Below, in pieces: positions 2,859-45,638 of a DNA stretch of 64,000 bases. The notes under the pieces were generated by a model that had not been told where the DNA came from, did not search any database, and was given only the letters and a program-made list of their open reading frames with translations. The stretch lies in NCBI RefSeq assembly GCF_024808665.1, contig NZ_JANUBZ010000003.1, positions 382,426 through 446,425 on the forward strand, written 5' to 3'. Each line of letters starts with the position of its first letter. Position 1 is the first letter of the stretch. The stretch comes from Mucilaginibacter empetricola (GTDB lineage Bacteria > Bacteroidota > Bacteroidia > Sphingobacteriales > Sphingobacteriaceae). Made by a program: the position numbers and the translations under genes.

Positions 2859-2915
2859 TTTTTGAATCGAACTAAAGTCAATAATTCCCTCATTTAACAA
2901 TTAATAAAACACACC

Positions 2916-4292: not shown

Positions 4293-4305
4293 TTATTATT
4301 TTATC

Positions 4306-11348: not shown

Positions 11349-11455
11349 TGTATCATAACCGTACACTTGTTGTAACAGAAGCGTACGCCCCATTTTGTTA
11401 AATAGGGTTTAAATTATTGAAATACAGCTATTTAATTTGTGGCATGTGTTTTTGT
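11349..11455 (+). promoter_or_regulatory. Enhancer-like repeat (site A) plus sigma-54-like promoter element
   Basis: The 40-bp repeat spans 11349-11388: TGTATCATAACCGTAC, then TTGTTGTAACAG, then GCGTACGC. Two CGTAC boxes are exactly 22 bp apart, about two helical turns. The GG of GTGGCATG lies at 11441-11442, 92 bp from the repeat start; the same arrangement occurs at three other sites in the cluster. GTGGCATG resembles a sigma-54 -24 box, but the -12 region (TTTTTGTAA) is a poor match. A start site about 20 bp before the GTG at 11486 would follow. Confidence 0.7.
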
Positions 11456-11485
11456 AACTAATTATCAAAATATAAAATAACTACA

Positions 11486-12739
11486 GTGGACAGAATAATT
11501 GAAAAAAAGACCTGGAATACTAAACGGATACTAACAATTACCGGCATAACAGCACTTGTATTACTTATTGCGGGGGCTATTTACTCTACATCGGGCAAAA
11601 GCAAGCTGGATGTTGATACTGAGCGATTAACTATAAGCACCATAACAAAAGGACCTTTTCAAGAAAATATTCCGGTGAATGGTGTGGTAATGCCATTAAC
11701 TACTATTTACCTGGATGCTACTGATGGAGGACGAGTGGAGCAAAAATTTGTTGAAGACGGAGCTATGCTTAAGGTAGGCGACCCTATTATAAAACTGTCA
11801 AATACAGATTTGGAACTGAGATTGGCTGATGAACAAACTGCTGTTTATAATGCCGAAACGCAGATGCAGATTTCGCACAATGCTGCGCAGCAAAATACCA
11901 TATCAAAATTAAATTCAATGGCTGATGTTGATGTGGCCTTTAAGGAAGCCGAAAGGATTTATAAACTGGATAAAGATTTATACAGTAAAAAGGCAATTGG
12001 TATGCAAGAATATCAAACTGCGGTTAACCAGTACGATTATCAGTTAAAACGTAAGAAACTGGCTATGCAGATTCTGGTGCAGGATACCGTATTGGTAAAA
12101 CAACAAGCGCTGCAGGCACAAGAGCAATATGCTCAAATGAAACAAACATTGGATCTTTTGAAGAAAAAAGTGAACGACCTGACTGTACAAGCACACGTTG
12201 CCGGTCAACTAACTTCATTTGATTCAGAAATTGGTCAGGATAAAAAGGCGGGTGATCCCCTGGGTCAAATCGACGTGCAGTCGGGCTTTAAGGTAAGAGT
12301 TAGTGTGGAAGAACATTACTTATCAAGAGTTTTTACGGGTTTAACAGGTGATTTTCAGTTTGCCGACAAAACCTACAAACTGATTATAAAAAAGGTGTTT
12401 ACGCAGGTGGCCAACGGTCAGTTTCAGGTTGATATGGCTTTTGTGGGACCCACGCCGACAGGAATTAGAAAAGGACAGACCCTACAGGTGAGACTTTTCT
12501 TAAGTGATGCAACACAGGCGCTGTTATTACCTAAAGGCGGCTTTTATCAGCAAACTGGTGGCAACTGGATATTTAAAGTGAGTGATGATGGAACAAAAGC
12601 TTACAAGGTTGATATACAGATAAACAGACAGAGTCCGGATTATTACGAATTAACATCGGGCTTAAAAGAAGGCGACAAAGTAATTACATCCAGCTATGAA
12701 ACTTATGGCGACATACAGGAACTGGTGCTAAAGAAGTGA
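11486..12739 (+). CDS. Periplasmic adaptor (HlyD/MacA-type membrane-fusion protein)
   Basis: A 417-residue adaptor of tripartite efflux systems, anchored by one N-terminal helix (about 14-36, ITGITALVLLIAGAIYST). The barrel-sandwich halves appear around GVVMPLTTIYLDATDGGRVEQ and LTVQAHVAGQLTSF, separated by a long coiled-coil hairpin (about 105-235). A beta-barrel and membrane-proximal domain follow, ending EELVLKK-like (QELVLKK). It should bridge the inner-membrane permeases to the TolC-like channel encoded at 43288. It is the first gene after site A and is the only adaptor for eleven permeases in this cluster. GTG is chosen as start because no ATG precedes the anchor helix. Confidence 0.9.
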   Translation: MDRIIEKKTWNTKRILTITGITALVLLIAGAIYSTSGKSKLDVDTERLTISTITKGPFQENIPVNGVVMPLTTIYLDATDGGRVEQKFVEDGAMLKVGDPIIKLSNTDLELRLADEQTAVYNAETQMQISHNAAQQNTISKLNSMADVDVAFKEAERIYKLDKDLYSKKAIGMQEYQTAVNQYDYQLKRKKLAMQILVQDTVLVKQQALQAQEQYAQMKQTLDLLKKKVNDLTVQAHVAGQLTSFDSEIGQDKKAGDPLGQIDVQSGFKVRVSVEEHYLSRVFTGLTGDFQFADKTYKLIIKKVFTQVANGQFQVDMAFVGPTPTGIRKGQTLQVRLFLSDATQALLLPKGGFYQQTGGNWIFKVSDDGTKAYKVDIQINRQSPDYYELTSGLKEGDKVITSSYETYGDIQELVLKK

Positions 12740-12857
12740 CGACTGGGAAAAAGAGTCGGGAGATAAGAATCAAGAGCCAGGAACAAAAAAATAAAAAACT
12801 AATTAACTCAAAACTATAAACCAAAGAATAAAATCACCCCCTTCAACGGGACAATTT

Positions 12858-12863
12858 AGGAGG
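12858..12863 (+). promoter_or_regulatory. Strong Shine-Dalgarno of ATPase 1
   Basis: A perfect AGGAGG lies 5 nt before the ATG at 12869. Full Shine-Dalgarno sequences are uncommon in Bacteroidota, and most neighbours here lack one, so this gene is probably translated more strongly than the permeases, which fits one ATPase serving several of them. Confidence 0.6.
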
Positions 12864-12868
12864 CACAA

Positions 12869-13546
12869 ATGATAAAAATTACAGATCTTGAGAAATTTTA
12901 CCGCACAGAAGAGGTAGAAACCATTGCTTTAAATAAGCTTTCAATAGAAGTTAAAACCGGCGAGTTTGTGGCTATAATGGGCCCATCTGGTTGCGGAAAG
13001 TCAACATTGCTTAACATTTTAGGCATGCTGGACGATCCGGATGAAGGAAGCTATGTATTTAACGGCATAGAGGTAGCACATTTTACTGAGCGTAAGCGTG
13101 CCGATTTACGCAAGCACAACATTGGTTTTGTGTTTCAAAGTTTTAACCTTATTGATGAATTAACCGTATTTGAAAATGTGGAACTTCCACTGATCTATAC
13201 GGGCGTACCAGCATCAGAAAGAGTTAAACGTGTAGAAGAAGTACTTGACAAGATGCAGATTATGCACCGTCGTAACCACTATCCGCAGCAGTTATCGGGT
13301 GGTCAGCAACAGCGTGTTGCTATTGCCAGAGCGGTAGTTAATAAACCTAAATTAATACTGGCGGATGAGCCTACCGGTAACCTGGATTCAAGTAATGGTA
13401 ATGATGTAATGGAATTACTTACCGACCTGAACGAACAAGGTACAACCATTATAATGGTAACCCACTCTGAACATGATGCTCGTTACAGTCACCGTATAAT
13501 CCGTTTACTGGATGGACAAACGGTGATGGAAAACATCATGATTTAA
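12869..13546 (+). CDS. ABC transporter ATPase 1 (MacB/LolD type)
   Basis: A stand-alone 225-residue nucleotide-binding subunit. All catalytic motifs are canonical: Walker A GPSGCGKST (38-46), Q-loop FVFQ (Gln90), signature LSGGQQQRVAIARA (142-155), Walker B LILADEP with Glu167, D-loop NLDS (Asp173) and H-loop His199. The FQSFNLIDELTVFENVELPL segment is typical of the MacB/LolD/FtsE group, which drives mechanotransmission permeases of the FtsX type. It energises the eight-helix permeases that follow. It is preceded by a 129-bp spacer after the adaptor gene and followed by two hairpins before permease 1. Confidence 0.95.
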   Translation: MIKITDLEKFYRTEEVETIALNKLSIEVKTGEFVAIMGPSGCGKSTLLNILGMLDDPDEGSYVFNGIEVAHFTERKRADLRKHNIGFVFQSFNLIDELTVFENVELPLIYTGVPASERVKRVEEVLDKMQIMHRRNHYPQQLSGGQQQRVAIARAVVNKPKLILADEPTGNLDSSNGNDVMELLTDLNEQGTTIIMVTHSEHDARYSHRIIRLLDGQTVMENIMI

Positions 13547-13569
13547 CTATTGCATAGTATTTAGCCCTG

Positions 13570-13608
13570 AGTCCGAAGCTAAAAATCAGTATCCAAAGAC
13601 TTCGGACT
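13570..13608. repeat. Inverted repeat AGTCCGAAG / CTTCGGACT
   Basis: A perfect 9-bp inverted repeat with a 21-nt loop, 24 bp after the end of ATPase 1. It lacks a T run on the plus strand, so it may be an mRNA-stabilising or processing hairpin rather than a terminator. A weaker AGTCCG / CGGACT hairpin recurs after permease 2 (near 18680-18710). Confidence 0.45.
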
Positions 13609-13643
13609 AAAAAATAGTTTATATAAGTTAATTAAGTGCCTCT

Positions 13644-13674
13644 GCTAACCCCCTCCAAAATTGGAGGGGTTAGC
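13644..13674. repeat. GC-rich hairpin in the ATPase 1-permease 1 spacer
   Basis: GCTAACCCCCTCCAA pairs with TTGGAGGGGTTAGC around a 2-nt loop, with one bulged C. The CCCCTCC-type dyad is of the dispersed intergenic kind also seen before folD. It could attenuate transcription into the permease genes or simply stabilise the upstream message; no T tract follows. Confidence 0.45.
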
Positions 13675-13766
13675 TTGAGTGGTAGCTTATTGCAATAAAT
13701 TACCACTTTGTTTTTATTGTAAGTGTTTGATTTTGTGAGTTAAATAACGTTTTTCAACACATAGCC

Positions 13767-16223: not shown

Positions 16224-16265
16224 GTGAAAGACTCGGGTATACAATTAACCTAATAAACCAATAAC

Positions 16266-18674: not shown

Positions 18675-18752
18675 GTTGAGTCCGTTTTCTTTGACGACGG
18701 ACTTAGATGAGGTAATAGTAATACAACCAATGAACCATTAAATTCAAAAGAT

Positions 18753-21110: not shown

Positions 21111-21129
21111 ATAACGAAATTAAAATATC

Positions 21130-23553: not shown

Positions 23554-23651
23554 GTGGCCAGTATTTAATTTATTTAAATGTTTCTCTGATGCAACCTAAA
23601 CGCTAAAATAATAGTCTTATAAATATTTGGTACTACTCTAAAATTTCACTT

Positions 23652-26018: not shown

Positions 26019-26103
26019 AATATCCAATTTTTAAAGAATTAGTCCACCAGGCAGTCAAAATGAGGCTGGTGAGCTGAGTAATAATTAAATGAACTAATAC
26101 ATC

Positions 26104-28491: not shown

Positions 28492-28598
28492 CAAAGCTTA
28501 CAGGTAGATTTTTGTTATTAGCAATATTTTTTTTGACAGATGCAACGTAGCGGACAAAGGGGGTGTCTATTACTGTATAAACTAATAAAAATAAAGAG

Positions 28599-29639
28599 AT
28601 GAAAAAGTATTTACTGCTGTTATTTATCGCCTGCCAAAGCACAGTTCTGTTGGCGCAGGATTGGAATAAAACCCCTTATCAAACAAAGTCGTTGGCTAAC
28701 GATGCCATTAAAGATGTGTATGTAGAAACATCAGGCGGTAGTATTGCCGTTAGTGGCGCTGCGGGCGAAGCGCCTCGTGTTGATATTTATGTTCATGGAA
28801 ACAATAACCAGGAGCTTTCAAAAGAAGAAATACAAAAAAGATTGGATGAAGACTACAAGCTGGAAGTTACCGTAACCAATCACGAATTACATGTTTTAGC
28901 AAAAAGAAAGCATGATGGTGGCCTTAACTGGGACTGGAGAAAACAATTAAGTATTTCTTTTAAAATATTTGTTCCCAAAAACGTAGATACCCGCCTTGGT
29001 ACCAGTGGTGGTAGCATTCACCTTGATAATTTATCAGGTAATGAAAACTTTAGCACCAGTGGCGGTAGCTTACATGTAGATGCCTTAACAGGGGTAATTA
29101 AAGGTGAAACATCAGGCGGAAGTATTGAAGTTTCCAACTCAGGCAATGATATTAATTTAGAAACCAGCGGCGGCAGCATTAACGCCAGCAATTGCCACGG
29201 AACCATAAAGCTGGAAACATCAGGTGGCTCATTGCATTTAGATGATTTAAAAGGAACCATCCGTGCAGAAACGAGTGGCGGCAGCATACAGGCAAACAGT
29301 ATTGAAGGTGAATTAATCACCGGAACATCAGGTGGCAGTGTTAATTTAACCAAATTATCTTGCAGCCTTGAAGCTTCAACCAGCGGCGGTAGCATGCATG
29401 TTGATATGGATCAGGTTGGCAAATATGTAAAACTGGATGTTAGCGGCGGTCATGTCGACCTAAAATTACCGGCTAATGTTGGGATGAACCTTAATCTGTC
29501 AGCAGATAAAATAAATTCTGTATCCGTTAAAAACTTCAGCGGCGAATGGGAAAAAACTCATATTAAAGGAAGCATAAACGGAGGTGGCATACCCGTGAGT
29601 GTTGACGCCAGCGGCAGCCTGAATCTGAGCTTTAATTAA
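28599..29639 (+). CDS. Exported TSGGS-repeat protein (DUF4097-like)
   Basis: A 346-residue protein with a signal peptide (MKKYLLLLFIACQSTVLLAQ). From about residue 40 onward it contains nine TSGGS turns and one degenerate copy (DVSGGH); from about residue 130 to 280 they recur every 15-21 residues, each followed by a hydrophobic strand such as IHLDNL or LHVDAL. This is the pattern of a right-handed beta-helix or stacked-strand fold of the DUF4097/DUF2807 adhesin-like group. It likely acts in the periplasm or at the surface. It sits in the middle of the permease array, 107 bp after permease 6 and followed by a strong terminator, so it is probably the last gene of that unit. Its role in transport is unknown. 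Confidence 0.85.
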   Translation: MKKYLLLLFIACQSTVLLAQDWNKTPYQTKSLANDAIKDVYVETSGGSIAVSGAAGEAPRVDIYVHGNNNQELSKEEIQKRLDEDYKLEVTVTNHELHVLAKRKHDGGLNWDWRKQLSISFKIFVPKNVDTRLGTSGGSIHLDNLSGNENFSTSGGSLHVDALTGVIKGETSGGSIEVSNSGNDINLETSGGSINASNCHGTIKLETSGGSLHLDDLKGTIRAETSGGSIQANSIEGELITGTSGGSVNLTKLSCSLEASTSGGSMHVDMDQVGKYVKLDVSGGHVDLKLPANVGMNLNLSADKINSVSVKNFSGEWEKTHIKGSINGGGIPVSVDASGSLNLSFN

Positions 29640-29661
29640 TTAAATAGCATTTAACGCTTAT

Positions 29662-29708
29662 AAGCGGTTTGTGAGGTCTTTTATTATCGACTTTGCAAAC
29701 CGCTTTTT
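29662..29708 (+). terminator. Intrinsic terminator after the TSGGS-repeat gene
   Basis: AAGCGGTTTG (29662-29671) pairs perfectly with CAAACCGCTT (29696-29705) and is followed by a run of five T. It ends the first transport unit just upstream of repeat site B. Confidence 0.75.
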
Positions 29709-29756
29709 CATTTGTGGCTTTTTATATTCTTCATCATTTACGCTTCATAAATAAAC

Positions 29757-29864
29757 TGTATCATAATCGTACACAAGGTGTTACGTCTTCGTACAGTTTT
29801 ATTTTAATGGTAGATTTAAGGTGCTGATTTTTAGTGTATTAGCCGTTTGGTATGGGTTTTAAAT
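29757..29864 (+). promoter_or_regulatory. Enhancer-like repeat (site B) plus sigma-54-like promoter element
   Basis: Second copy of the 40-bp repeat, 29757-29796: TGTATCATAATCGTACAC, then GGTGTTACGT, then TTCGTACAG. CGTAC boxes are again 22 bp apart. The GG of TTTGGTATG is at 29849-29850, 92 bp from the repeat start, exactly as at site A. A start near 29874 would leave about 15 nt before the ATG of permease 7 at 29889. TACTTTG further down might instead be a housekeeping -7 element. Confidence 0.7.
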
Positions 29865-29888
29865 ATACTTTGTAAAAAATATAGGTTT

Positions 29889-32312: not shown

Positions 32313-32329
32313 TATAAAATGATAAAGTC

Positions 32330-34765: not shown

Positions 34766-34779
34766 TAAGCACTTATCTT

Positions 34780-34888
34780 TGTATCAAAAACGAACAGTTA
34801 GTGTTTTATTTACGAACATGTTCGTAAATAAAAATATTAGTAATGTGTTGATTGTTAGTATATTGTGTTTTTGGTATGTGATTTATAC
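34780..34888 (+). promoter_or_regulatory. Enhancer-like repeat (site D) plus sigma-54-like promoter element
   Basis: The most diverged copy of the 40-bp repeat, 34780-34819: TGTATCAAAAACGAACAG, then TAGTGTTTTA, then TTACGAACAT. CGAAC replaces CGTAC, but the 22-bp box spacing is kept. The GG of TTTGGTATG is at 34873-34874, 93 bp from the repeat start. A start near 34898 would give a leader of about 12 nt for permease 9. Confidence 0.65.
34804..34833. repeat. 30-bp perfect palindrome overlapping site D
   Basis: TTTTATTTACGAACA is followed directly by its exact reverse complement, with no loop, centred at 34818/34819. It covers the second box of site D and adds an inverted half-site (TGTTCG). 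A palindrome without a loop looks like a dimeric protein-binding site rather than a terminator. Confidence 0.75.
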
Positions 34889-34909
34889 TTCTTATAGTAA
34901 GTTGAAATT

Positions 34910-37330
34910 ATGATAAAAAATTATTTAAAAATTGCCTGGCGAAACATCATTCGTCATAAAACTTACTCGGCTATTAATGTAGTTGGGTTAACAATAGGTA
35001 TTGCGGCCTGTTTACTTATTTTCTTAATTATTCAATTCGAGTTGAGTTATGATACTTTTCAGCCCAACTATAAAAACATCTATCATATTGCTACCGAGCA
35101 AATGAGCGAGAGTGGCATTGACTATAATCCAGGTGTTGGCATACCGGCTACTGAAGCCTTAAGACTTGAGTTCCCCAAAGCAAAGGTTGCGTCTATTAAT
35201 TCCAGTTATGGCAGCCAGATCACGGTGGCTGATGGCGACGATCTTAAATATACCGGCGGCAAAAAGTTTACCGAAAACGTAGGGGTTGTTTTTATAGAAC
35301 CTCAATTTTTTGACATTTTCAGTTGGAGGTGGTTGGCTGGTAATGCTACTGTGTTGGCTAATCCTAATATGGTTGTATTAGATCAAAGTACGGCCTCTAA
35401 ATATTTTGGCAGCTGGACAAATGCTGTTGGCAAATCCATTAAAATGGATAATTTGATTAATCTGAAAGTTGCCGGCGTAATTGAAGATGCACCTAGTAAT
35501 AGCGATTTTCCATTTAAAGTGCTGGTATCACACATCACTTGGAAGAATTATCCTAAAGACTACAATTATTCCACAGATTGGGGATTACTCAGCAGCAATC
35601 ACCAGGTTTTTATGCTTTTTCCTGATCATACCGGGCTGCAAGATATTGATGCGCAATTAAAAAGGGTAACAATTAAGTACTATAAATCAGGGCTTAAACA
35701 CCATCTTATTGTTGCTCAGCCATTGTCATTAATGCATTTTGATACCATATTTGGCAACACACTAGGCGACCACATCACTACCAAAGCAACACTGCGCACC
35801 TTATTTTTCATTGCCATTTTAATTATTGTAATGGCCTCTATTAACTTTATTAATCTTTCTACTGCTCAATCTGTTGGGAGGTCAAAAGAGGTAGGTATCC
35901 GTAAGGTATTGGGCAGCAGCAGGAAACAACTGGCGGTGCAGGTAATAGGTGAAACTGCCTTTATTGTTATTGGAGCAACCCTTTTGGCTATTCTGGTTGG
36001 CAAATTAAGTATGCCTTATTTAAAAAATATTGCCAGCGTTCCTGATGATATCAATTTACTAAATGGCGGCAGTGTAATTTTCTTAGCTCTTACTGCAATT
36101 GTGGTAATCATTCTTTCGGGTATTTACCCGGCTCTGATAGTGTCTGGTTTCAAACCTGTTTTGGCGCTTAAAAACAAAATTACGGCTGCCTCCATTGGTG
36201 GTATTTCGCTAAGGCGTACACTCGTAATAACTCAATTTGCTATATCTCAGCTATTAATCATCGGCACGGTGGTGGCCGTTAGTCAGATGGATTTTGTAAA
36301 CAAAGCCGATTTGGGCTTCAACAAAAATGCTGTGCTAATGCTGCCGGGATATACCGATAGTATCAGCCTTAAAAAAATGCAATCGTTTAAACAACAGGTT
36401 TTGCAAAACCCAGCTGTGCAGTCGGTTAGTTTTAACAGCGATGCGCCATCATCTGATAATAACTCAGCCGAAAATTTTAATTTCAATCACTCCGCAAAAG
36501 ACCCTGGATTTCCAACTTTTGTTAAAATTGGAGATGCGGATTATTTTAAAACGTTTGGTTTGCGCTTTACGGCGGGCAAGGGATACGAGGTTAGCGATAC
36601 CATGCGTCAGGCGGTTGTAAATCAAACACTATTGCGCAAACTGGGTGTTCTGCACGATGAGGATGCTGTTGGTAAAACCATTAGCCTGGGTGGCGGATCA
36701 TGGGCAACAATTACCGGTGTGGTAGAAGATTTTAAAACAAATTCTTTACGGGAAGCTGTAAAGCCAATTGTTATTTATCCATTAAAAAAATACGAATCAC
36801 AGGCAGCCGTAAAAATAAAATCTAACAACTTGGTAAAAACTGTTACAGGTATTCAGTCACTTTGGGAAAAAACCTATCCCGAGTATGCATACAATGGCTT
36901 TTTCCTTAATGAATCAATAGCCAAATTTTACAAACAAGAAAACCAGTTAGCATTGGTTTATAAAATATTTGCCTTCATTGCCATATTTATTTCATGCCTT
37001 GGCTTGTACGGCCTGGTATCATTTATGGCCGTGCAAAGAACAAAAGAAGTTGGTGTACGCAAGGTTTTAGGTGCATCGGTAAGCAGCATAGTTTTATTAT
37101 TCTCTAAGGAGTTTGTTGTGCTGATCATTATATCCTGCGTAATCGCCATGCCGGCCGCTTATTACATTATGACGGGTTGGCTGCAGAATTTTGCCTATCG
37201 TATATCATTAAATATATGGGTTTTTGTACTATCTGTTATCATTTCGGTGGTAATAGCCTGGCTAACCGTAAGCTATAAAGCAATCAAAGCGGCTACTGTG
37301 AATCCTGTAAAAAGCCTGAGAAGCGAATAG
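34910..37330 (+). CDS. ABC permease 9
   Basis: An 806-residue paralogue, first gene of the third permease block, just after repeat site D. It groups with permease 3, not with its neighbours (NFINLSTAQ, TQFAISQLLI, LGLYGLVSF). Coupling loops are GRSKEVGVRKVLGSS and QRTKEVGVRKVLGAS; the tail is NPVKSLRSE. The first periplasmic domain departs most from the others (HIATEQMSESGIDYNPGVGI), where most have YRV after the first helix. Its relatedness to a distant array member suggests that blocks were duplicated and rearranged rather than built by simple stepwise tandem copying. Confidence 0.92.
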   Translation: MIKNYLKIAWRNIIRHKTYSAINVVGLTIGIAACLLIFLIIQFELSYDTFQPNYKNIYHIATEQMSESGIDYNPGVGIPATEALRLEFPKAKVASINSSYGSQITVADGDDLKYTGGKKFTENVGVVFIEPQFFDIFSWRWLAGNATVLANPNMVVLDQSTASKYFGSWTNAVGKSIKMDNLINLKVAGVIEDAPSNSDFPFKVLVSHITWKNYPKDYNYSTDWGLLSSNHQVFMLFPDHTGLQDIDAQLKRVTIKYYKSGLKHHLIVAQPLSLMHFDTIFGNTLGDHITTKATLRTLFFIAILIIVMASINFINLSTAQSVGRSKEVGIRKVLGSSRKQLAVQVIGETAFIVIGATLLAILVGKLSMPYLKNIASVPDDINLLNGGSVIFLALTAIVVIILSGIYPALIVSGFKPVLALKNKITAASIGGISLRRTLVITQFAISQLLIIGTVVAVSQMDFVNKADLGFNKNAVLMLPGYTDSISLKKMQSFKQQVLQNPAVQSVSFNSDAPSSDNNSAENFNFNHSAKDPGFPTFVKIGDADYFKTFGLRFTAGKGYEVSDTMRQAVVNQTLLRKLGVLHDEDAVGKTISLGGGSWATITGVVEDFKTNSLREAVKPIVIYPLKKYESQAAVKIKSNNLVKTVTGIQSLWEKTYPEYAYNGFFLNESIAKFYKQENQLALVYKIFAFIAIFISCLGLYGLVSFMAVQRTKEVGVRKVLGASVSSIVLLFSKEFVVLIIISCVIAMPAAYYIMTGWLQNFAYRISLNIWVFVLSVIISVVIAWLTVSYKAIKAATVNPVKSLRSE

Positions 37331-37405
37331 GCTAATTATCGGTTGGAGGATTAGGTAGGTTTATTAGAATACAGATGAAAAATTGAACCAATGAATTAAA
37401 TTATC

Positions 37406-39772
37406 ATGATAAAAAATTACATTAAAACCACCCTGCGCAGTTTGTTAAAGAACCGCGCATTTAGTTTTTTAAATATCGTCGGCCTTGCGATAGGTATTGC
37501 GTGTGCTTCGTTAATTTTTTTATGGGTGCAAGACGAGCTTACCTATAATCAAAACTTTAAGAAGCACGACAATTTATATACCATTTACGAAAATCAAACT
37601 TACGAAGGTAAAGTAAGCACTTTTCATGCTACCCCTGGGCCCATGGCCAAAGTGTTGAAAGCTGAAATACCCGGTATAAAACGGGTGGCAAGAACAACAG
37701 GGAGCGACGGTGACGAACTTTTTGCCCTTGGCGATAAAACAATTACCGAAAAGGGCAGGTTTGCTGATGCTGAACTGCTTCCGATGCTTAATTTACCCTT
37801 TGTTAAAGGGAATGCTGCAAATCCATTGCAGCAATTACATTCTGTTGTGATAAGTGAAAAAATGGCAGCAAAGTTTTTTGGCGATGCAGATCCTATTGGC
37901 AAAACATTAAAGGTAAACAACGAACAGGAGTATATTGTTACCGCGGTTTTTAAAGATTTGCCCAAGAATTCGACTTTTCAATTTCAATGGTTGTCGCCAA
38001 TGGCTAACGTTGACCATAAACAGCCCTGGATGGATAATTGGGGTGCCAATTGGACCCGTACTTTTGTCGAATTGGAACCATCTGCAAACGTGGCTTCAAT
38101 TAATAGGAAATTGAGTCATTTTATTGCTGATAAAAAAAGGGATAATGATAAAACCGCCTGTTTCTTGTTTGCGATGAACGACTGGAACCTTCATGACAAT
38201 TTTGTAGATGGTAAAATGAGTGGCGGTCGCATACAATATGTCAACATATTCTCCTTTATAGCCTTTATAATTTTATTGATTGCGTGCATCAATTTCATGA
38301 ATTTATCAACTGCGCGATCTGAACAACGGGCTAAGGAAGTTGGGGTACGAAAAGTGATGGGTGCCGGCAAGGGCAAGTTAATTGGACAGTTTATTAGTGA
38401 GGCTATTATCATGTCATTTATTGCGGTGTTGATAGCCATTGGAATGATTTACCTGGCGCTGCCATCATTTAACAATATGGTGCAAAAAGATTTAACCGCA
38501 GATATTTTTGCACCCGCACACTTAATATACCTGGCTGGTATAAGCCTTATTACGGGTTTACTTGCAGGTAGTTATCCGGCATTTTATCTTTCTTCATTTA
38601 ACCCGATAGCTGTTTTAAAGAATATAAAAATAAAATCTGCTACAGGTACCGGTTTTATCAGGCAGGGCCTGGTAGTAGTTCAGTTTTCGGTATCAATAAT
38701 ATTGATCATCGGAACAATTATTATTTATCAGCAAATACAGTTTGTAAAAAACCGTCAGCTGGGTTTTGCAAAAAGTAACTTAATTTATATTAATCTGCAA
38801 GGTAAACAGGTTGACCAATTTCCGGCTATTTATAATGACCTTAAACAAACAGGTGTGGTTGAAGATGCATCACTAAGTGATAACCCCGCTTTACAGATTG
38901 GCAGCAATACCGATAATTATTCGTGGGATGGGAAAGATGCCATTAAAAATCCACTCATCTCCTGGCAAAACGTAAGCCCGCAATTTATATCAACTATGGG
39001 TATGAAGCTCGTTGCGGGCCGGGATTTTTATCGCGAAGCTGCTGTAGATAGCAATAGTGTGATTATTAATGAAGCTTTTGCAAAACAAATGGGCAAAGAA
39101 GGTAAAGTAGGCGGAATTATAAGAGATGGAGGGAAGAAAGCATTCACCATAAGGGGAATTGTTAAGGATTTTCTTTACAACGATATGTATGCAAAAGCCG
39201 GGCCGCTTTTGCTTTACTGTCACCCTGCTGGTACCGGAGTTTTAAGCATCCGTTTTAAAGCCGGTGTGAATTTACAGTCAGCGTTGGTAAAAGCGGGGGC
39301 GGTTATAAAGGCCGATAGTCCGGGCTATCCTTTTGAATACCAGTTTACTGATGATGATTTTAACCGGTTGTTCAAAACTGAAACTTTAACCGGCACACTT
39401 GCAGGGGTTTTTGCATCGCTGGCCATTTTTATTTCGTGTTTGGGTCTATTCGGGCTTGCGGCCTATACCGCTGAGCGCCGCATAAAAGAAATTGGCATAC
39501 GGAAAGTACTTGGTGCTTCGGTTTCGGGCCTTGCCGGCTTATTGTCAAAAGACTTTTTGAAGTTAGTGGGCCTGTCATGCATTATTGCTTTCCCGGTTGC
39601 ATGGTTCTTTATAAATAACTGGCTGCGCAGTTACGAGTATCGCGTAACTATAAATTGGTTGATATTTTTAATATCCGGCGTTGTGGCAATTGTCATCGCG
39701 CTGGCTACCGTAAGTTTTCAGGCTATCAAGGCTGCCTTAATGAACCCGGTTAGGAGTTTGCGCAGCGAATAG
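37406..39772 (+). CDS. ABC permease 10
   Basis: A 788-residue paralogue, 75 bp after permease 9. Coupling loop 1 is QRAKEVGVRKVMGAG; loop 2, RRIKEIGIRKVLGAS, is preceded by TAE rather than the usual aromatic or small residues. The tail NPVRSLRSE has Arg for Lys. The first periplasmic domain starts LYTIYENQTYEGKVSTFHAT, a form seen in many stand-alone Bacteroidota permeases of this family. The upstream spacer ends with TTGAACCAATGAATTAAA, a variant of the word found before permeases 3 and 11. Confidence 0.92.
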   Translation: MIKNYIKTTLRSLLKNRAFSFLNIVGLAIGIACASLIFLWVQDELTYNQNFKKHDNLYTIYENQTYEGKVSTFHATPGPMAKVLKAEIPGIKRVARTTGSDGDELFALGDKTITEKGRFADAELLPMLNLPFVKGNAANPLQQLHSVVISEKMAAKFFGDADPIGKTLKVNNEQEYIVTAVFKDLPKNSTFQFQWLSPMANVDHKQPWMDNWGANWTRTFVELEPSANVASINRKLSHFIADKKRDNDKTACFLFAMNDWNLHDNFVDGKMSGGRIQYVNIFSFIAFIILLIACINFMNLSTARSEQRAKEVGVRKVMGAGKGKLIGQFISEAIIMSFIAVLIAIGMIYLALPSFNNMVQKDLTADIFAPAHLIYLAGISLITGLLAGSYPAFYLSSFNPIAVLKNIKIKSATGTGFIRQGLVVVQFSVSIILIIGTIIIYQQIQFVKNRQLGFAKSNLIYINLQGKQVDQFPAIYNDLKQTGVVEDASLSDNPALQIGSNTDNYSWDGKDAIKNPLISWQNVSPQFISTMGMKLVAGRDFYREAAVDSNSVIINEAFAKQMGKEGKVGGIIRDGGKKAFTIRGIVKDFLYNDMYAKAGPLLLYCHPAGTGVLSIRFKAGVNLQSALVKAGAVIKADSPGYPFEYQFTDDDFNRLFKTETLTGTLAGVFASLAIFISCLGLFGLAAYTAERRIKEIGIRKVLGASVSGLAGLLSKDFLKLVGLSCIIAFPVAWFFINNWLRSYEYRVTINWLIFLISGVVAIVIALATVSFQAIKAALMNPVRSLRSE

Positions 39773-39838
39773 TGTGGTTGGCGATTGGAGTTTGAGATCG
39801 CTGAAAATTACTTACGGACACTTAATAACAGCCGTTCT

Positions 39839-39878
39839 ACCAATAAACTAATGAACAATTGAACCAATAAACTAATTG
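39839..39878 (+). repeat. Degenerate CCAATAAA/CTAATGAA leader repeats
   Basis: The leader of permease 11 contains CCAATAAACTAATGAACA and, after TTGAA, CCAATAAACTAATT: three or four imperfect copies of an 8-9-nt word. Related words precede permeases 2, 3, 6 and 10. They may be low-complexity leaders that replace a Shine-Dalgarno sequence, which is weak or absent here. Confidence 0.4.
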
Positions 39879-39881
39879 GCT

Positions 39882-42281
39882 ATGATTAAAAATTATTTAA
39901 AAATTGCGTGGCGCAACATTTGGAAAAACAAGGTTTTTTCGGCGATTAATATCATTGGGTTATCCGTAGGGATGGCGGCTTGTATTGTTATTATGTTGTT
40001 TGTATCGTATGAAAAAAGCTTCGATAATTTCCACACTAAAAATATATACCGTTTAAACGAGGTGCAAACTGTGGGTAGTCAAGGCACCACTCAAAAGGTG
40101 GCATTGTCCATGTTTCCGATGGGGCCAACGTTAAAACAGGATTTTCCCGAAATAAAAAACTTTACGCGGATACATTGGGATGGGAAGTATCAGTTAACAC
40201 TTAACAATAAAAAGGTGTTTCTGCCGCAGGTGTTTTTTGTTGATTCTACCTTTCTTAAAATGTTTGATTTTAAGGTAATTAAAGGCGAAAGCACAACTGC
40301 ACTGCTGAAACCGCACACAGCAGTGATTACCGAAGAAACGGCGAAAAAGTTATTTGGCGATGCCGACCCCATAGGTAAAACAATAACCCATTACGGGGAT
40401 GATACCGTGTCATTTGTAGTAACGGGAATAATGGCAAATGTTCCTAAAAACTCGCAGTTACAATTTGACGCGCTGTTTTCTTTTAGTAGTATTTATAAAC
40501 CCTGGATGTTTACTAACTGGGGCGGTAACTGGTTAAATACTTATGTAGAACTTGCTCCCGGTACAAATGCGGCAACGTTAGATAAAAAGTTCCCCGCTTA
40601 CCTAAAAAAGTATATGAAAGGTGATGGTTGGAAATACACACAGCTGTTTGTTTTGCCATTTAAAGATATACACGCAAATTCTGCAGATATCGGGCTGGAT
40701 TATATCAACTACCAAAAGTTTGATAAAAAATCAACCAATTTATTTGCCATTATTGCACTTATCGTATTGGTGATAGCCTGCGTTAACTTTGTGAACCTGT
40801 CAACCGCCCGATCGGCCGAAAGAGCCAAGGAAGTGGGTATCCGTAAATCAATAGGGGCCTATCGTTTTCAATTGGCCTCGCAATTTATTGGAGAAACGGT
40901 GTTAGTGTCGTTTATGGCGTTATTGCTTGCTTTAATAATAGTTGAACTAACCATTCCGTATATAAACAATCTGAGCGAAAGGGATATTTCTTTCAATGTT
41001 TTCGGTAGTATTTATCCGGTGCTTACTGTTTTATTGGGCACTGTGTTTATTGGTTTATTGTCGGGCATTTATCCGGCTATTTATTTGTCATCGTTTAAAG
41101 CGGTGCGCGTTTTAAAAGGATCAATACAAATAGGTAAAAACAAAAGCTTATTAAGAAATATTTTGGTTGTTGTGCAGTTTTCAAGCGCCATTTTCCTGAT
41201 GATAGCCACCGCTTTTGTATTAAGGCAACTAAATTTCATGCAAAAACAAGATCCCGGATATAACCGCGATCAGATTGTCAATATCCCACTGGATGGTGTC
41301 ACCACGAAGAAATATGACCTGTTTAAAAAAGAACTCTTAAACAGTAATTTAATTTCAGGGGTTACTGCTTCGCAGGATATTTTGGGAAGTCATTTAGATC
41401 AAACAGGGGTAACTTTTAAACCAGCCAATGGGCCGAAACAGGATTTGGGTACAACGCTACTGGTGGTTGATACCAATTACCTCAATTTATATAAAATTAA
41501 ACTGGCCGCAGGTAAAAACTTCTCGAGCGATAAAATGCCCGATGGCAGGCAGTTTATTGTTAATGAAGCATTGGCTAAAGAGTTATTAAAAGATCACCCT
41601 AAAGCGCCTTTATCATCATTGGTAGGGCAACAATTTGGTTTTGATACCTTGGGAACTATTGTGGGGGTAGCCAAAAACTTCAATTTTAACTCTCTGCAAT
41701 ACAAAATAGAACCCATGTTTTTGGTAAGTTCGTTGCATTGGGGGTTCAGGGATATATCCGTTAAGGTAAACGGCAATAATACTGCAGCTGCAATTGCTTT
41801 TATTAAATCAACCTGGGACAGCGTTTATCCTGATTACCCTCTTGAATACCAGTTTTTAGATGACCATTTTAACGAGGTTTATAAAGCAGATAATCAGGTA
41901 AGCCAAATCGTGGGAATTTTGGCCGGGCTTGCTATTTTTATCTCCTGTTTAGGGTTGTTCGGACTGGCATCGCATGCGGCTCAAAAAAGAATAAAAGAAA
42001 TAGGCGTACGCAAAGTATTGGGAGCTTCGGTACAAAATATCACTTTACTACTTTCCAGCAATTTCCTCAAACTTGTTTTAATAGCCAACCTTATAGCATG
42101 GCCTGTTGCATGGTTTTTTATGCATAAATGGCTTCAGACTTTTGCCTATCATGTCAATATTCAATGGTGGATATTTTTACTTTCAGGCATCGTTTCTATA
42201 CTCATTGCATTCCTCACCGTAAGTTATCAGTCAGTTAAAGCAGCTATTGCCAACCCGGTAAAAAGTTTAAGAAGCGAATGA
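39882..42281 (+). CDS. ABC permease 11
   Basis: A 799-residue paralogue, the last of the array. ATG 39882 gives the family start MIKNYLKIAWRNIWKN; an in-frame TTG at 39876 would only add two residues. Coupling loop 1, ERAKEVGIRKSIGAY, has Ser in place of the usual Val; loop 2, KRIKEIGVRKVLGAS, resembles that of permease 10. The tail is NPVKSLRSE. The first periplasmic domain has NEVQTVGSQGTTQKVALS and a long acidic-poor insertion before KYMKGDGWKYTQLFVLP. It is followed by a hairpin and then repeat site C, so it ends the third permease block. Confidence 0.92.
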   Translation: MIKNYLKIAWRNIWKNKVFSAINIIGLSVGMAACIVIMLFVSYEKSFDNFHTKNIYRLNEVQTVGSQGTTQKVALSMFPMGPTLKQDFPEIKNFTRIHWDGKYQLTLNNKKVFLPQVFFVDSTFLKMFDFKVIKGESTTALLKPHTAVITEETAKKLFGDADPIGKTITHYGDDTVSFVVTGIMANVPKNSQLQFDALFSFSSIYKPWMFTNWGGNWLNTYVELAPGTNAATLDKKFPAYLKKYMKGDGWKYTQLFVLPFKDIHANSADIGLDYINYQKFDKKSTNLFAIIALIVLVIACVNFVNLSTARSAERAKEVGIRKSIGAYRFQLASQFIGETVLVSFMALLLALIIVELTIPYINNLSERDISFNVFGSIYPVLTVLLGTVFIGLLSGIYPAIYLSSFKAVRVLKGSIQIGKNKSLLRNILVVVQFSSAIFLMIATAFVLRQLNFMQKQDPGYNRDQIVNIPLDGVTTKKYDLFKKELLNSNLISGVTASQDILGSHLDQTGVTFKPANGPKQDLGTTLLVVDTNYLNLYKIKLAAGKNFSSDKMPDGRQFIVNEALAKELLKDHPKAPLSSLVGQQFGFDTLGTIVGVAKNFNFNSLQYKIEPMFLVSSLHWGFRDISVKVNGNNTAAAIAFIKSTWDSVYPDYPLEYQFLDDHFNEVYKADNQVSQIVGILAGLAIFISCLGLFGLASHAAQKRIKEIGVRKVLGASVQNITLLLSSNFLKLVLIANLIAWPVAWFFMHKWLQTFAYHVNIQWWIFLLSGIVSILIAFLTVSYQSVKAAIANPVKSLRSE

Positions 42282-42288
42282 TGGCGTG

Positions 42289-42343
42289 GGAGATTAGTTA
42301 GCAGCAATTAGCATAGCGCTTCTCAAATTGCTAACTAATCTCC
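42289..42343 (+). terminator. Hairpin after permease 11
   Basis: A perfect 15-bp stem (GGAGATTAGTTAGCA at 42289-42303 with its complement at 42329-42343). There is no T run, so it may end the message or stabilise its 3' end. It lies 30 bp before repeat site C. Confidence 0.55.
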
Positions 42344-42372
42344 AACCGCTAAACACTAATCACCAATCCCAT

Positions 42373-42482
42373 TGTATCATAACCGTACGCTTCCTGTTAC
42401 GTAAGCGAACAGTAATTGCCTGTTGTTTTATTTATAAGTATCTGATATTTAAGTAGTTGATATTTTGGTATGTTATTGATGC
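42373..42482 (+). promoter_or_regulatory. Enhancer-like repeat (site C) plus sigma-54-like promoter element
   Basis: Third well-conserved copy of the 40-bp repeat, 42373-42412: TGTATCATAACCGTACGC, then CCTGTTACGT, then AAGCGAACAG. The GG of TTTTGGTATG lies at 42467-42468, 94 bp from the repeat start. The region from 42282 to 42583 (302 bp) otherwise holds only the hairpin above and an AT-rich leader of about 90 nt before ATPase 2; I see no small gene in it. Confidence 0.7.
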
Positions 42483-42583
42483 TTTTGTGGGCAAATGAAT
42501 AAGTACAAAACGGAGATTAAAATACTTATTTAATAAATTAGCAACTTAGTAGTTTAATAAATTAATAATTCAAACACACACAC

Positions 42584-43261
42584 ATGTTATCATTACAGCA
42601 TATTTCAAAATACTACCAGGTTGGCGGCAATAAAAATTTTGTATTAAACGATGTTAGCCTCGAAATTGATGAAGGCGAATTCATCTCTATCATGGGTCCC
42701 TCAGGTTCGGGCAAATCAACGCTGTTAAACGTTATCGGCATGCTTGATGAACCATCAGAAGGCTATCATTATTTTGTTGGCAATTCGGTACATCAGCTTA
42801 AAGAAAAACAGCGCTCGGCATTATATAAACAATATATCGGGTTCGTTTTTCAGGCTTATCATTTAATTGATGAGCTTACCGTGTATGAAAACATAGAAAC
42901 CCCTTTAATATACCAGGACTATAAAAGCGGTGAGCGCAAAGCAATGGTTGCTGATATGCTTGATCGTTTTCAGATTGTAGGTAAAAAAGACCTTTTCCCT
43001 GCTCAACTCTCGGGCGGACAACAGCAGCTTGTAGGTATAGCGAGGGCTTTAATAGCCAAACCAAAATTGTTACTGGCAGATGAGCCCACCGGAAACCTTA
43101 ACTCCAAACAAGGAGAGGAAATTATGGAGCTTTTCCGCAAATTGAACAAGGAAGATGGCGTAACCATTATACAGGTAACACATTCCGAAAAAAATGCCGA
43201 ATACGGATCGAGGGTGATTAACCTGTTGGATGGTAAGATTGAATCCTCAAGAAAATTCTGA
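42584..43261 (+). CDS. ABC transporter ATPase 2 with altered D-loop
   Basis: Also 225 residues, aligning with ATPase 1 position for position over the first 190. Walker A GPSGSGKST (38-46), Gln90, LSGGQ (142-146), the Walker B Glu167 and a switch His200 are present. Two sites depart from the consensus: the D-loop reads NLNS (Asn173 for Asp), and the signature continues QQQLVGIARA instead of QQQRVAIARA (Arg149 to Leu, Ala151 to Gly). The D-loop Asp normally helps communication between the two ATP sites, so this subunit may be catalytically biased. It could pair with ATPase 1 as a heterodimer or serve its own permeases. It heads the unit with the TolC-like gene. Confidence 0.93.
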   Translation: MLSLQHISKYYQVGGNKNFVLNDVSLEIDEGEFISIMGPSGSGKSTLLNVIGMLDEPSEGYHYFVGNSVHQLKEKQRSALYKQYIGFVFQAYHLIDELTVYENIETPLIYQDYKSGERKAMVADMLDRFQIVGKKDLFPAQLSGGQQQLVGIARALIAKPKLLLADEPTGNLNSKQGEEIMELFRKLNKEDGVTIIQVTHSEKNAEYGSRVINLLDGKIESSRKF

Positions 43262-43287
43262 ACTATAAAATAATTGTAAACATTAAA

Positions 43288-44718
43288 ATGCGACTTAATA
43301 AATACTTTTTAACGATTCTCTTCATATCCTGCAGCATAATAGTGCATGCGCAGCAAGACAGTACACTTTCATTGCAACAGTGCCTGGACATCGCTATAAA
43401 AAATAATTTAAATGTTAAGCAAAGCGGCTTAACAATGGAGCAGGACCGGATTGCCTTTAACCAGTCAAAAGAGAACTTACTGCCATCTATTACCGGCGCT
43501 GCCAGCCGTGAACTTAGCCAGGGCCGTGGTATTAACCCGGTGACCAATACCTATGTAAATCAGTCCTTAACTTCTGATAACTATTCTTTAAACGGAAGTC
43601 TTGTTTTATTTAATGGCTTAGCGCTTCAAAACTCCATAAAACAAACCAAGCTGGCTTATCAGGCAGGTAAAATGGATTTTCAGGCGGCAAAAGATTTGGT
43701 AACAGTAAGTATTATTACCAATTATTTAGCTGTGTTAAATTCCGAAGAAATACTATCCCAAACAAAAAGTCAGATGGCAGTTTCACAACAAAATGTTGAC
43801 AGATCGGCCATACTTGAACAAAGCGGAGCGAATAAAATAGCGTCAGATTTTACAGATTTTAAAGGCGCGCTGGCTGGTAGCCAGGTTGCGGTAGTTAATG
43901 CGCAAAATAATTTGAATTTAGCCAGGTTAAGCTTGTATCAGCTGATGAATATTCCTTACAACAAGAGTGCAGAATTGCAACCTTTAAATGCCCAGGATCT
44001 GGTTGGCGACTATGGTGTTAATCCGGATGAGGTTTATGGTACTGCATTACAGCAACTGGCAGTTGTAAAAGCGGCGACTTTAAGACGTGAAAGTGCAGAG
44101 AAGGGTGTAAGTGTTGCTAAAGGACAATTATTACCAACTCTGGCCCTTAATGGTGGTATATCAACCAATTATTCAAGCGCGGGTCAAAAATCGGTATTTA
44201 TTGATTCTACAGTTGTACCTACCGGTGGATTTATAAATACGCCCACAGGAAAACAATCTGTTTTTGCTGATCAGGCAAATTATTCAGATCAAAATATTAA
44301 GTATTGGGATCAGTTTAAAAACAATTATGGAACAGCACTAACATTAGGGCTTAATATCCCAATATTTACAAATCATATCAAGAAGAATGCTGTAGCACTG
44401 GCTAAAATTAATCTGGAGAATGAACAATTAATTGAAGCCAATACCAAAATTCAATTGAAGCAAAACGTTGAGCAGGCTTATTATAATATGCTATCGGCTT
44501 ATAATACTTTTAAGGCAACCAATGAGCAGGTAAATGCCTATACAGAAAGTTACCGGATCTCAAAGATTCGTTTGGATGCGGGGGTAATTACCTCAGTCGA
44601 TTTTATAATAGCTCAAAATAACCTTGACGCGGCAAAATTAAATTTAATAAGTGCCCGTTATGATTATTTCATTTACAGCAAAATACTTGATTATTATCAG
44701 GGAAAATTATCTTTATAG
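43288..44718 (+). CDS. TolC-like outer-membrane efflux protein
   Basis: A 476-residue outer-membrane factor with a signal peptide (about MRLNKYFLTILFISCSIIVHAQ). The mature protein begins STLSLQQCLDIAIKNNLNVKQ, the usual start of the first OEP repeat, and shows two long helical hairpins with the second beginning near GTALTLGLNIPIF. It forms the exit duct from periplasm to outside, coupling to the adaptor encoded at 11486. It is 26 bp behind ATPase 2. It is the only channel gene in the cluster, so all eleven permeases would have to share it if all work as tripartite pumps. Confidence 0.9.
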   Translation: MRLNKYFLTILFISCSIIVHAQQDSTLSLQQCLDIAIKNNLNVKQSGLTMEQDRIAFNQSKENLLPSITGAASRELSQGRGINPVTNTYVNQSLTSDNYSLNGSLVLFNGLALQNSIKQTKLAYQAGKMDFQAAKDLVTVSIITNYLAVLNSEEILSQTKSQMAVSQQNVDRSAILEQSGANKIASDFTDFKGALAGSQVAVVNAQNNLNLARLSLYQLMNIPYNKSAELQPLNAQDLVGDYGVNPDEVYGTALQQLAVVKAATLRRESAEKGVSVAKGQLLPTLALNGGISTNYSSAGQKSVFIDSTVVPTGGFINTPTGKQSVFADQANYSDQNIKYWDQFKNNYGTALTLGLNIPIFTNHIKKNAVALAKINLENEQLIEANTKIQLKQNVEQAYYNMLSAYNTFKATNEQVNAYTESYRISKIRLDAGVITSVDFIIAQNNLDAAKLNLISARYDYFIYSKILDYYQGKLSL

Positions 44719-44811
44719 AATATATTGCCAATTTCTATTATCTTTAAATGTTTTTGGATGAACAAAATAGACTAAGCGATTGCCCAAAGACGAGCATTTA
44801 TTAATTGAAAT

Positions 44812-45405
44812 ATGAAGAAATTTTTACTTGCCTTAATATTCTTTGCTGGCTCCCTTGGCATTGCAAGCGCTCAAATATTACCATCATTTCAGTTTGGTAT
44901 TAAAGGTGGTGTGAATGATGCCGGATTAAATATTGATAATCCTACTTTTAACAATAGTACCAGGATTGGATACCTTGGCGGTTTTTGGGCAAGGATAGGC
45001 GCGTTGGGATTTAATTTTCAGCCTGAGCTTTATGCAACATCCAAAAATGTGCAAATTTCTGACGGTAATGGCGAAACAAGGGCGCAATTTACCAGTATTG
45101 ATGTTCCTCTTTTATTTGGAGGCAAGGTAGGTGCTTTCGGCATAGGCGCCCGTTTTTATACCGGCCCATTGGTGTCATTAGCTATAAATAAAGATCAAAG
45201 TTTTAGCGGCGCGTTAAATAATGCAGTAACGCTTAACTACAAAAACCAAAACTTTGCCTGGCAATTTGGTACAGGGTTGGACATTAAAAACCTCTCTATC
45301 GATTTACGGTATGAAGCCGGCATTACTAAGCAAACTTATGGTAACTCGCAAACAAGAGTGAGTTTATTTAGCTTGAGCCTGGCGGTTCCTTTAATTAAAA
45401 TATAA
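44812..45405 (+). CDS. Outer-membrane beta-barrel protein (PorT-like)
   Basis: A 197-residue protein with a signal peptide (MKKFLLALIFFAGSLGIASAQ) and repeated amphipathic strands, ending in the typical outer-membrane sequence LFSLSLAVPLIKI. It matches the small Bacteroidota barrel family (outer-membrane protein beta-barrel, PorT-like), with FGIKGGVN near the mature N-terminus, GYLGGFWARI, and FQPELYATSK. It follows the TolC-like gene by 93 bp in the same direction and precedes a terminator, so it may be the last member of the transport locus. Its role may be structural or sensing; none is proven. Confidence 0.8.
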   Translation: MKKFLLALIFFAGSLGIASAQILPSFQFGIKGGVNDAGLNIDNPTFNNSTRIGYLGGFWARIGALGFNFQPELYATSKNVQISDGNGETRAQFTSIDVPLLFGGKVGAFGIGARFYTGPLVSLAINKDQSFSGALNNAVTLNYKNQNFAWQFGTGLDIKNLSIDLRYEAGITKQTYGNSQTRVSLFSLSLAVPLIKI

Positions 45406-45444
45406 ACTATACAAGATACATCACCCTAAACACACAATTAAAAT

Positions 45445-45477
45445 AGGCCGTCCTTTATAAACAAGGCCGGTTTTTTT
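45445..45477 (+). terminator. Intrinsic terminator at the end of the transport locus
   Basis: A stem with CCTT/AAGG at the apex and GCC-type pairs below (one mismatch, two wobbles), loop TATAAAC, followed by seven T. It closes the ATPase 2-TolC-barrel unit. Confidence 0.7.
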
Positions 45478-45638
45478 ATTTGAAAACTTCCCGTCGTGTA
45501 AATTTACACCGGCCATTATGATGTTGGTTTTGTATTATATTTTAAATTGATAATGTAAATATAGTATTATACTTATTGTAGAACATACACATATCTTTAT
45601 AAACCAATTGAATGGACTTGGGATTATAATTATTGTGA

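Follow-up and report, generated by a model that had tools for sequence, protein, structure and literature searches.

A 64-kb stretch of the 5.8-Mb genome of Mucilaginibacter empetricola (contig NZ_JANUBZ010000003.1, positions 382,426–446,425; the whole stretch is referred to as the window) encodes eleven fused MacB/FtsX-type permeases (p1–p11), whose intact open reading frames (ORFs) run on the plus strand from 13767 to 42281. The array is flanked by a periplasmic adaptor and the ATPase N1 upstream, and by a second ATPase (N2), a TolC-like channel and a small β-barrel protein downstream; a histidine kinase (HK) and a σ54-dependent response regulator (RR) are encoded upstream of the adaptor in opposite orientation. 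According to our analysis, this locus probably encodes a modular type VII (MacB-like) ABC export system in which a shared engine powers swappable permeases. Four lines of evidence, namely the scattered permeases of the same genome, gene counts in ten genomes, chassis that are unlinked to permeases, and shared activator half-sites, suggest that permeases outside the array are also served by these ATPases. By chassis we mean the gene set HK-RR, adaptor-N1 ... N2-channel, which recurs across Mucilaginibacter and related families. A first-pass annotation of the window had already described eleven fused permeases of 785–818 amino acids together with a single adaptor, a single TolC-like channel and two ATPases encoded as stand-alone genes; domain matches confirmed this inventory, with MacB_PCD above its cut-off in all eleven permease ORFs.

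Besides the array, the genome encodes another 17 fused permeases, spread over 13 fetched loci (one permease is frame-interrupted). No ATPase was seen beside any of these scattered permeases within flanks of a few kb, one permease lying at a contig end; a separate ATPase for each permease elsewhere, which the first-pass annotation had named as an outcome that would speak against its view, was thus not encountered for them. Judging from neighbours and length, the remaining strong LolD/MacB-class ATPases of the genome resemble LolD, FtsE, MacAB-TolC, YbbAP and MetN-like proteins. As a separate observation, three scattered permeases (L073:4115-7738, L079:3900-7517 and L079:7795-9510, all on the plus strand) carry an N-terminally fused AraC-type helix-turn-helix (HTH) region, a transcription-factor-like domain on a membrane transporter; two of these proteins comprise about 1205 amino acids, and the third, frame-interrupted one was examined as two ORFs.

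Fused-permease matches in ten genomes numbered 1, 1, 3, 4, 52, 38, 5, 6, 24 and 18 (fragments included). Each of these genomes has one chassis N1, distinguished by means of the N2 search and the loci of an adaptor scan, and N2 occurs once in eight of them and was not found in two. The genome with 52 permease matches (G434, Chitinophagaceae CRAIB_MAG53) has one N1 and one N2, and its chassis holds only a 256-amino-acid permease ORF between the two. No stand-alone N1/N2-like ATPase was found in 20 fetched permease regions on other contigs of this genome; at its locus L249 two longer, weakly similar ABC proteins adjoin the permease. Intermediate ATPases belong to a MacAB-TolC-like locus in G434 and, in G435 and G439, to separate pumps that have a weakly similar adaptor of their own and a pair of half-size permeases. 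The ATPases of the latter pumps (L255 in G435, L258 in G439) are N1-like at 53–54% identity, and L255 also contains an HK-RR pair; these pumps are possibly an unfused relative of the system.

Chassis and permeases can also be physically separate. In G019, adaptor-N1 was found without a permease in the 40 kb fetched, N2 is located on a different contig, and the nine permeases of seven sampled regions all lie on contigs other than those of the chassis parts; two of these seven regions hold an ABC protein of 31% similarity some kb away. N1 and N2 are distant from each other or on different contigs in G010, G014, G019 and G038. Also in G019, L225 (5.3–10.7 kb) contains a second related HK-RR pair, with an RR 52% identical to that of the window, which adjoins a fused permease.

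The promoters provide the fourth line of evidence. A tandem activator site, resembling an upstream activating sequence (UAS) and built of two 16-bp half-sites at a 22-bp period, occurs four times in the window vs. 0 in 100 shuffles, and a search of the entire genome allowing up to three mismatches retrieved four sites, all of them in the window and located before the adaptor, p7, p9 and N2; position 11349, at which the first-pass annotation let the system begin, is the first base of the first of these sites. In the arrays of the own genome and of 25 others, 54 tandem sites were listed, all intergenic and on the array strand, with three of the 54 in the window. A TGGYAY box follows 79–82 nt past the core in 53 of the 54; the −12 element is weakly conserved. 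The locus thus combines an activator domain, a UAS and a −24-like box at fixed spacing, as is characteristic of a σ54 two-component regulon, and a link of σ54 to this permease COG in Bacteroidia has been reported before (PMC12316311). Plain consensus scans showed no excess, neither for σ54 (181 matches in the window vs. 179 expected) nor for σ70 (52 vs. 54.5 expected in 28400–45700).

For scattered loci, a half-site matrix was used. Its training set consisted of array promoters from the fetched genomes, including those of the window, that had been selected for the presence of the box; the scattered loci and G434 were left out. The threshold of 10 bits and the phasing windows were fixed after the first sites were known. 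With phasing, the matrix retrieved 8 half-sites (four promoters) in the window vs. 0.2 expected, and 7 rows vs. 0.4 expected in 251 kb of other stretches of the own genome. Six of these 7 represent four promoters before scattered permeases (L071, L072, L075 and L078), and the seventh is weak and lies inside a permease. The 17 scattered permeases comprise 13 scored lead permeases, two internal ones and two unscored ones (at a contig end and frame-interrupted, respectively); phased sites precede 4 of the 13 lead permeases. In 178 kb of G434 (20 loci), 9 rows were found vs. 0.8 expected, 8 of them before permeases; the site in L237, at about 5444 on the minus strand, does not lead into a permease and possibly marks a non-permease member of the regulon. 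Half-sites above 10 bits precede 5/13 scattered lead permeases vs. 1/115 other lead ORFs in the own genome, and 13/22 vs. 3/58 in G434. Partial co-regulation in trans of unlinked permeases is therefore supported in two genomes at the level of predicted sites. The view of the first-pass annotation that the system forms one regulated locus was too narrow: there are four σ54-like promoters with a common activator site, which is also found at some unlinked permeases. Its proposal of common hardware fared differently for the individual parts. Sharing of the ATPases across permeases is well supported by comparative evidence (no ATPase seen beside the scattered permeases, gene counts, unlinked chassis and the shared phased promoter), the genome counts being consistent with physical sharing, while a common adaptor and channel are suggested only by co-occurrence.

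The first-pass annotation knew of no described system with so many such permeases in one regulated locus. Arrays of this kind are widely distributed across Bacteroidota, and some exceed the present one in size: between N1 and N2, 4–21 permeases are present in the 13 genus genomes (own included) that were fetched with both ends, and the order of the chassis recurs. Among the best 80 of at least 577 relatives retained from an adaptor-alignment scan of genome contigs, adaptor, N1 and a permease follow each other in all 66 loci for which at least 5 kb of downstream sequence was available; of the 70 loci with at least 5 kb on the upstream side, 64 have a related RR there. These 80 loci include the genera Mucilaginibacter, Arcticibacter, Hufsiella, Solitalea, Niastella, Lacibacter, Flavihumibacter, Terrimonas, Ferruginibacter and Sediminibacterium. 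The channel adjoins N2 in most complete arrays, and most loci also have HK-RR beside the chassis. Among 392 genomes drawn from the phylum, N1 (E ≤ 1e-80) was detected in 128 and a duplicated permease (E ≤ 1e-60) in 141, with 118 having both. N1 is carried by 76 of the 79 permease-positive genomes that had 15 or more first-look candidates; the Fisher and co-occurrence tests ignore kinship.

The Walker A, Walker B, signature, Q and H motifs of N1 and N2 are all intact. N1 is 93–99% identical to the window copy within the genus, and its identity exceeds that of LolD in 15/15 and that of FtsE in 17/17 genus genomes with both values; for N2 the corresponding fractions are 7/10 and 11/12, the values for N1/N2, LolD and FtsE being taken from separate comparisons. 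N2 is present in 23/23 genomes with the adaptor (own included) and in 1/18 without it. Two Sediminibacterium genomes (L206 and L211) hold HK-RR, adaptor, N1, one permease and the channel with no N2 found in the genome, an arrangement that is minimal and may be the simplest version of the system. Because these two single-permease genomes lack N2, an N1–N2 heterodimer would not be obligatory.

Several observations weigh against a shared engine. The hub-like conservation rate of N1 could also result from high expression. N2 was missing from the genome-wide match counts of the two Sediminibacterium genomes, and these as well as G434 are metagenome-assembled genomes (MAGs). The co-occurrence of N1 and permeases is imperfect, with 10 N1-positive genomes lacking an ADOP match at 1e-60 and 23 genomes showing the reverse. 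N1-class matches number one in 116 of the 128 N1-positive genomes, two in 11 and four in G375, i.e., two to four in 12/128. In G209 each N1 copy is accompanied by a separate HK-RR pair and one or two permeases, and at least one of the copies in G375 lies directly beside permeases; therefore, the engine appears to have been duplicated with small permease sets in some lineages, and one engine per genome is weakened as a phylum-wide rule. Regarding the promoters, no half-site over threshold precedes 8/13 scattered lead permeases of the own genome, 9/22 in G434, and any of the 11 lead permeases in G019 and G038, two genomes in which the regulators share about half of their residues with those of the window; no tandem site was listed for the stretches fetched from G019, G038, G287, G178 and G229. 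Since many scattered permeases thus lack a half-site and some genomes a listed tandem site, co-regulation is partial and clade-limited.

Some of these points would fit a set of tandem, otherwise ordinary MacB-like pumps, in which array permeases use N1/N2 by virtue of their locus and the scattered ones use other ATPases or have lost function. A LolD-like ATPase without an adjacent permease indeed exists in the genome (L082) and could serve some scattered permeases, and the scattered lead permeases without a half-site and the lineages with several N1 copies and few permeases each point in the same direction. We nevertheless consider this explanation unlikely. The array-type tail NPxxSL(R/K)SE is present in 17/17 scattered fused permeases and in 0/5 of the other MacB/YbbP/LolC-type permeases of the own genome that were compared. 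Moreover, 7 of 16 scattered permeases have their closest relative inside the array of another species (69.9–74.8% identity), in a comparison set made up of 263 array permeases and these 16 from the own genome, without scattered permeases of other genomes. The chassis promoter signature is kept at scattered permeases in two genomes, and the 52 permease matches of G434 are accompanied by one N1 and one N2.

The array permeases have lengths of 785–818 amino acids with ATG starts, which were used for p7 (29889) and p11 (39882) instead of the TTG codons in the ORF list, and two stretches each of MacB_PCD and FtsX in p1 and p2 agree with a duplicated four-transmembrane unit. Pairwise identity within the array is 31–58% (mean 37%). 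Conservation peaks at the N-terminus, the coupling helices (mean identity of 0.57–0.64 per 20-column bin) and the C-terminal tail (0.86 in the final eight residues), and many of the invariant residues in an alignment of 75 sequences are located in these regions as well. As the first-pass annotation had stated, the periplasmic parts are highly divergent (bins mostly 0.07–0.4, one 0.46), which suggests different cargo. The near-constant loops and tail that it had emphasised are both present, but as distinguishing features they differ in value. The coupling motif (R/K)E(I/V)G(I/V)RxxxGA, of which the strict pattern finds the second copy in 261/263 and the first in 211/263 array permeases, was rejected as an unusual feature, as it is a general trait of the MacB family and also present in solved MacB structures. 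The C-terminal tail is a family theme in the sub-class form NPxxSL(R/K)SE, which occurs in 11/11 window permeases and fits 243/263 array permeases. Two further ideas were discarded. The array permeases are not inactive relics, a possibility raised by the first-pass annotation, because the ORFs are intact and dN/dS is 0.03–0.06 for the ten that have an ortholog in the closely related genome G035 (with near-saturated synonymous sites; p1 has no ortholog in the G035 array). Recent tandem amplification is not their main source, as only 25 of 263 array permeases have their best match in the same array; the median best within-array identity is 41%.

For the modular export system, the following mechanism can be proposed. 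The HK, which is almost wholly membrane-bound on its input side, and the σ54-dependent RR would activate promoters with the common tandem site, so that the engine N1/N2, one adaptor, one channel and a variable set of permeases, in the array and elsewhere, would be produced together. Each permease would act as a two-in-one transmembrane unit that docks to the common ATPases via its near-constant coupling helices and tail, and its own periplasmic domains would select a particular cargo or act on it. Cytoplasmic ATP hydrolysis would then be converted by mechanotransmission into periplasmic motion that drives the cargo into the adaptor-channel conduit. Gene content, conservation, shared promoters and the lack of other ATPases close to the sampled permeases are seen in the sequences themselves; docking, export direction, cargo and any N1–N2 heterodimer are parts of this scheme that we infer.

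The kinase has two N-terminal transmembrane helices separated by a very short loop in 17/18 genomes. This is a hallmark of BceS-type kinases, which sense via a transporter, and owing to the two helices and the short loop the kinase may detect its signal inside the membrane, perhaps by way of the transporter. Together with the presence of HK-RR at most chassis, these features could indicate that the permeases are mainly Bce-like flux sensors or signalling devices that talk to the kinase, with export being secondary. This is quite unlikely, since a dedicated adaptor and a TolC-like channel in the locus argue for export, and the ratio of one kinase to as many as 21 permeases does not resemble the one-to-one Bce modules. 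LolCDE-like trafficking of lipoproteins or other envelope components, with each permease extracting one lipoprotein class, is very improbable: the fold family is the same type VII family and N1 shares about 49% identity with the LolD-like ATPase, but the adaptor and channel are conserved parts of the system, and a LolD-like ATPase and LolC/E-like permeases are separately present in the genome.

The proposed export system shares features with several known transporters. It resembles MacAB-TolC in the permease fold family, the coupling motif and the presence of an adaptor and a TolC-like channel, and mechanotransmission would be expected; however, it differs by its stand-alone ATPases, fused double permeases and many permeases per engine. 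MacB, as described in part in PMC5985334, has a fused ATPase and forms a homodimer. A stand-alone ATPase (DarD-like), a fused permease (DarB-like) and an adaptor (DarC-like) are shared with DarBCD, a system of one permease with one ATPase. The darobactin exporter models are the best-scoring NCBIfam relatives of the ATPases and the adaptor; the cut-offs of NF038007/8/10 were not reached (N1 301/375 bits, N2 251/375, adaptor 142/450, p1 108/700, p11 121/700). In contrast to the darobactin locus, no peptide biosynthesis gene was seen among the annotated genes of the window. YbbAP and BceAB have one permease per ATPase and no known channel. They likewise combine a two-in-one fused permease with a separate ATPase, as described for the fused permeases of the type VII family in general (PMC5985334).

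The permeases belong to the same fused class as the ADOP family (TIGR03434), which also occurs in large numbers: 102 duplicated orphan permeases, 80 of them transcribed, were reported for one acidobacterial MAG (PMC10564751), and 28 and 33 are annotated in two Dyadobacter genomes (PMC11573002). Over nearly the whole TIGR03434 model, p1 and p11 score 306 and 283 bits, below the cut-off of 622, and several further array permeases are also listed as matches below it. Among the matches listed, this cut-off is passed in 0/31 genomes (the own and 30 relatives) and in 1/392 genomes of the phylum draw, with up to 22 ADOP matches scored per genome in the former set and up to two in the latter; the single passing genome has N1. 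The accessible text of the two ADOP accounts names no ATPase (PMC10564751, PMC11573002), whereas a candidate engine and a shared promoter are identified here. One energising module for many membrane parts encoded elsewhere is known from group II ECF importers and MsmK-type systems. The ECF module is shared and contains the pair EcfA/EcfA', which resembles N1/N2. These are importers of other ABC types, in contrast to the type VII system with a trans-envelope conduit proposed here. MsmK has been described as the shared ATPase of importers (PMC4519317). No paper on this array, a shared type VII engine or the ATPase of the orphan permeases was found in a search mostly outside subscription journals. 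Coordinates of all parts are given in Table 1.

Table 1. Genes and regulatory elements of the permease array and its chassis (positions within the window).
Feature	Position	Strand	Domain matches and remarks
Histidine kinase (HK)	8373..9725	-	HATPase_c; adjoins chassis in most relatives
Transmembrane helices of HK	residues 11-29 and 33-51		N-terminal, few-residue loop; from hydropathy
σ54-dependent response regulator (RR)	9715..11070	-	Response_reg + Sigma54_activat + HTH_8
UAS1, tandem activator site 5' of adaptor	11349..11386	+	two 16-bp half-sites, 22-bp period
σ54-like box TGGCATG...	11440..11455	+	80 nt past UAS1 core
Periplasmic adaptor (membrane fusion protein, MFP; DarC-like)	11486..12739	+	HlyD_3, RND_mfp/DarC
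ATPase N1 (DarD-like)	12869..13546	+	catalytic motifs intact
p1, fused permease, 818 aa	13767..16223	+	MacB_PCD
p2, fused permease, 802 aa	16266..18674	+	MacB_PCD
p3, fused permease, 785 aa	18753..21110	+	MacB_PCD
p4, fused permease, 807 aa	21130..23553	+	MacB_PCD
p5, fused permease, 788 aa	23652..26018	+	MacB_PCD
p6, fused permease, 795 aa	26104..28491	+	MacB_PCD
DUF4097 (toastrack)/LiaG-like protein	28599..29639	+	within many relative arrays too
UAS2, tandem activator site 5' of p7	29757..29794	+	
σ54-like box 5' of p7	29848..29863	+	
p7, fused permease, 807 aa	29889..32312	+	MacB_PCD
p8, fused permease, 811 aa	32330..34765	+	MacB_PCD; 8 transmembrane segments by hydropathy
UAS3, tandem activator site 5' of p9	34780..34817	+	
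σ54-like box 5' of p9	34872..34887	+	
p9, fused permease, 806 aa	34910..37330	+	MacB_PCD
p10, fused permease, 788 aa	37406..39772	+	MacB_PCD
p11, fused permease, 799 aa	39882..42281	+	MacB_PCD
UAS4, tandem activator site 5' of N2	42373..42410	+	
σ54-like box 5' of N2	42466..42481	+	82 nt past UAS4 core
ATPase N2	42584..43261	+	paralog distinct from N1 (51%); catalytic motifs intact, LSGGQQQL variant
TolC-like outer-membrane channel (OMF)	43288..44718	+	OEP
Small outer-membrane β-barrel protein (BB)	44812..45405	+	weak TDE1717-family match below cut-off

The DUF4097/LiaG-like gene splits the array between p6 and p7. Such toastrack proteins are also encoded near two scattered permeases of G434 (L243 and L244) and are possibly functional partners of the permeases. 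The β-barrel gene follows the channel in many arrays of relatives. Positions 1521–5076 of the window encode ethanolamine ammonia lyase (EutB and EutC) preceded by an amino-acid permease; these genes are unrelated to the array.

A more far-reaching interpretation, which we advance tentatively as a possibility somewhat short of probable, is that N1/N2 constitute the general engine of the 'orphan' duplicated permeases of Bacteroidota and thus a type VII counterpart of the group II ECF module. Up to dozens of permeases would then compete genome-wide for one ATPase pair, one adaptor and one channel within a σ54 regulon, whose membrane-embedded kinase may read the activity of the engine. Large duplicated sets of orphan permeases in Bacteroidota and Acidobacteriota are annotated without known function, according to PMC11573002 and PMC10564751. 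If the sharing proposed for this soil Bacteroidota bacterium is real, it would show what powers this large class of permeases; the present analysis puts forward a specific candidate for the engine, along with a shared regulator and a promoter signature. Deletion of one or two genes could probe the energising of dozens of transporters together. The export system would, moreover, diversify by exchange of the membrane part alone, a design that to our knowledge has so far been known from importers only.

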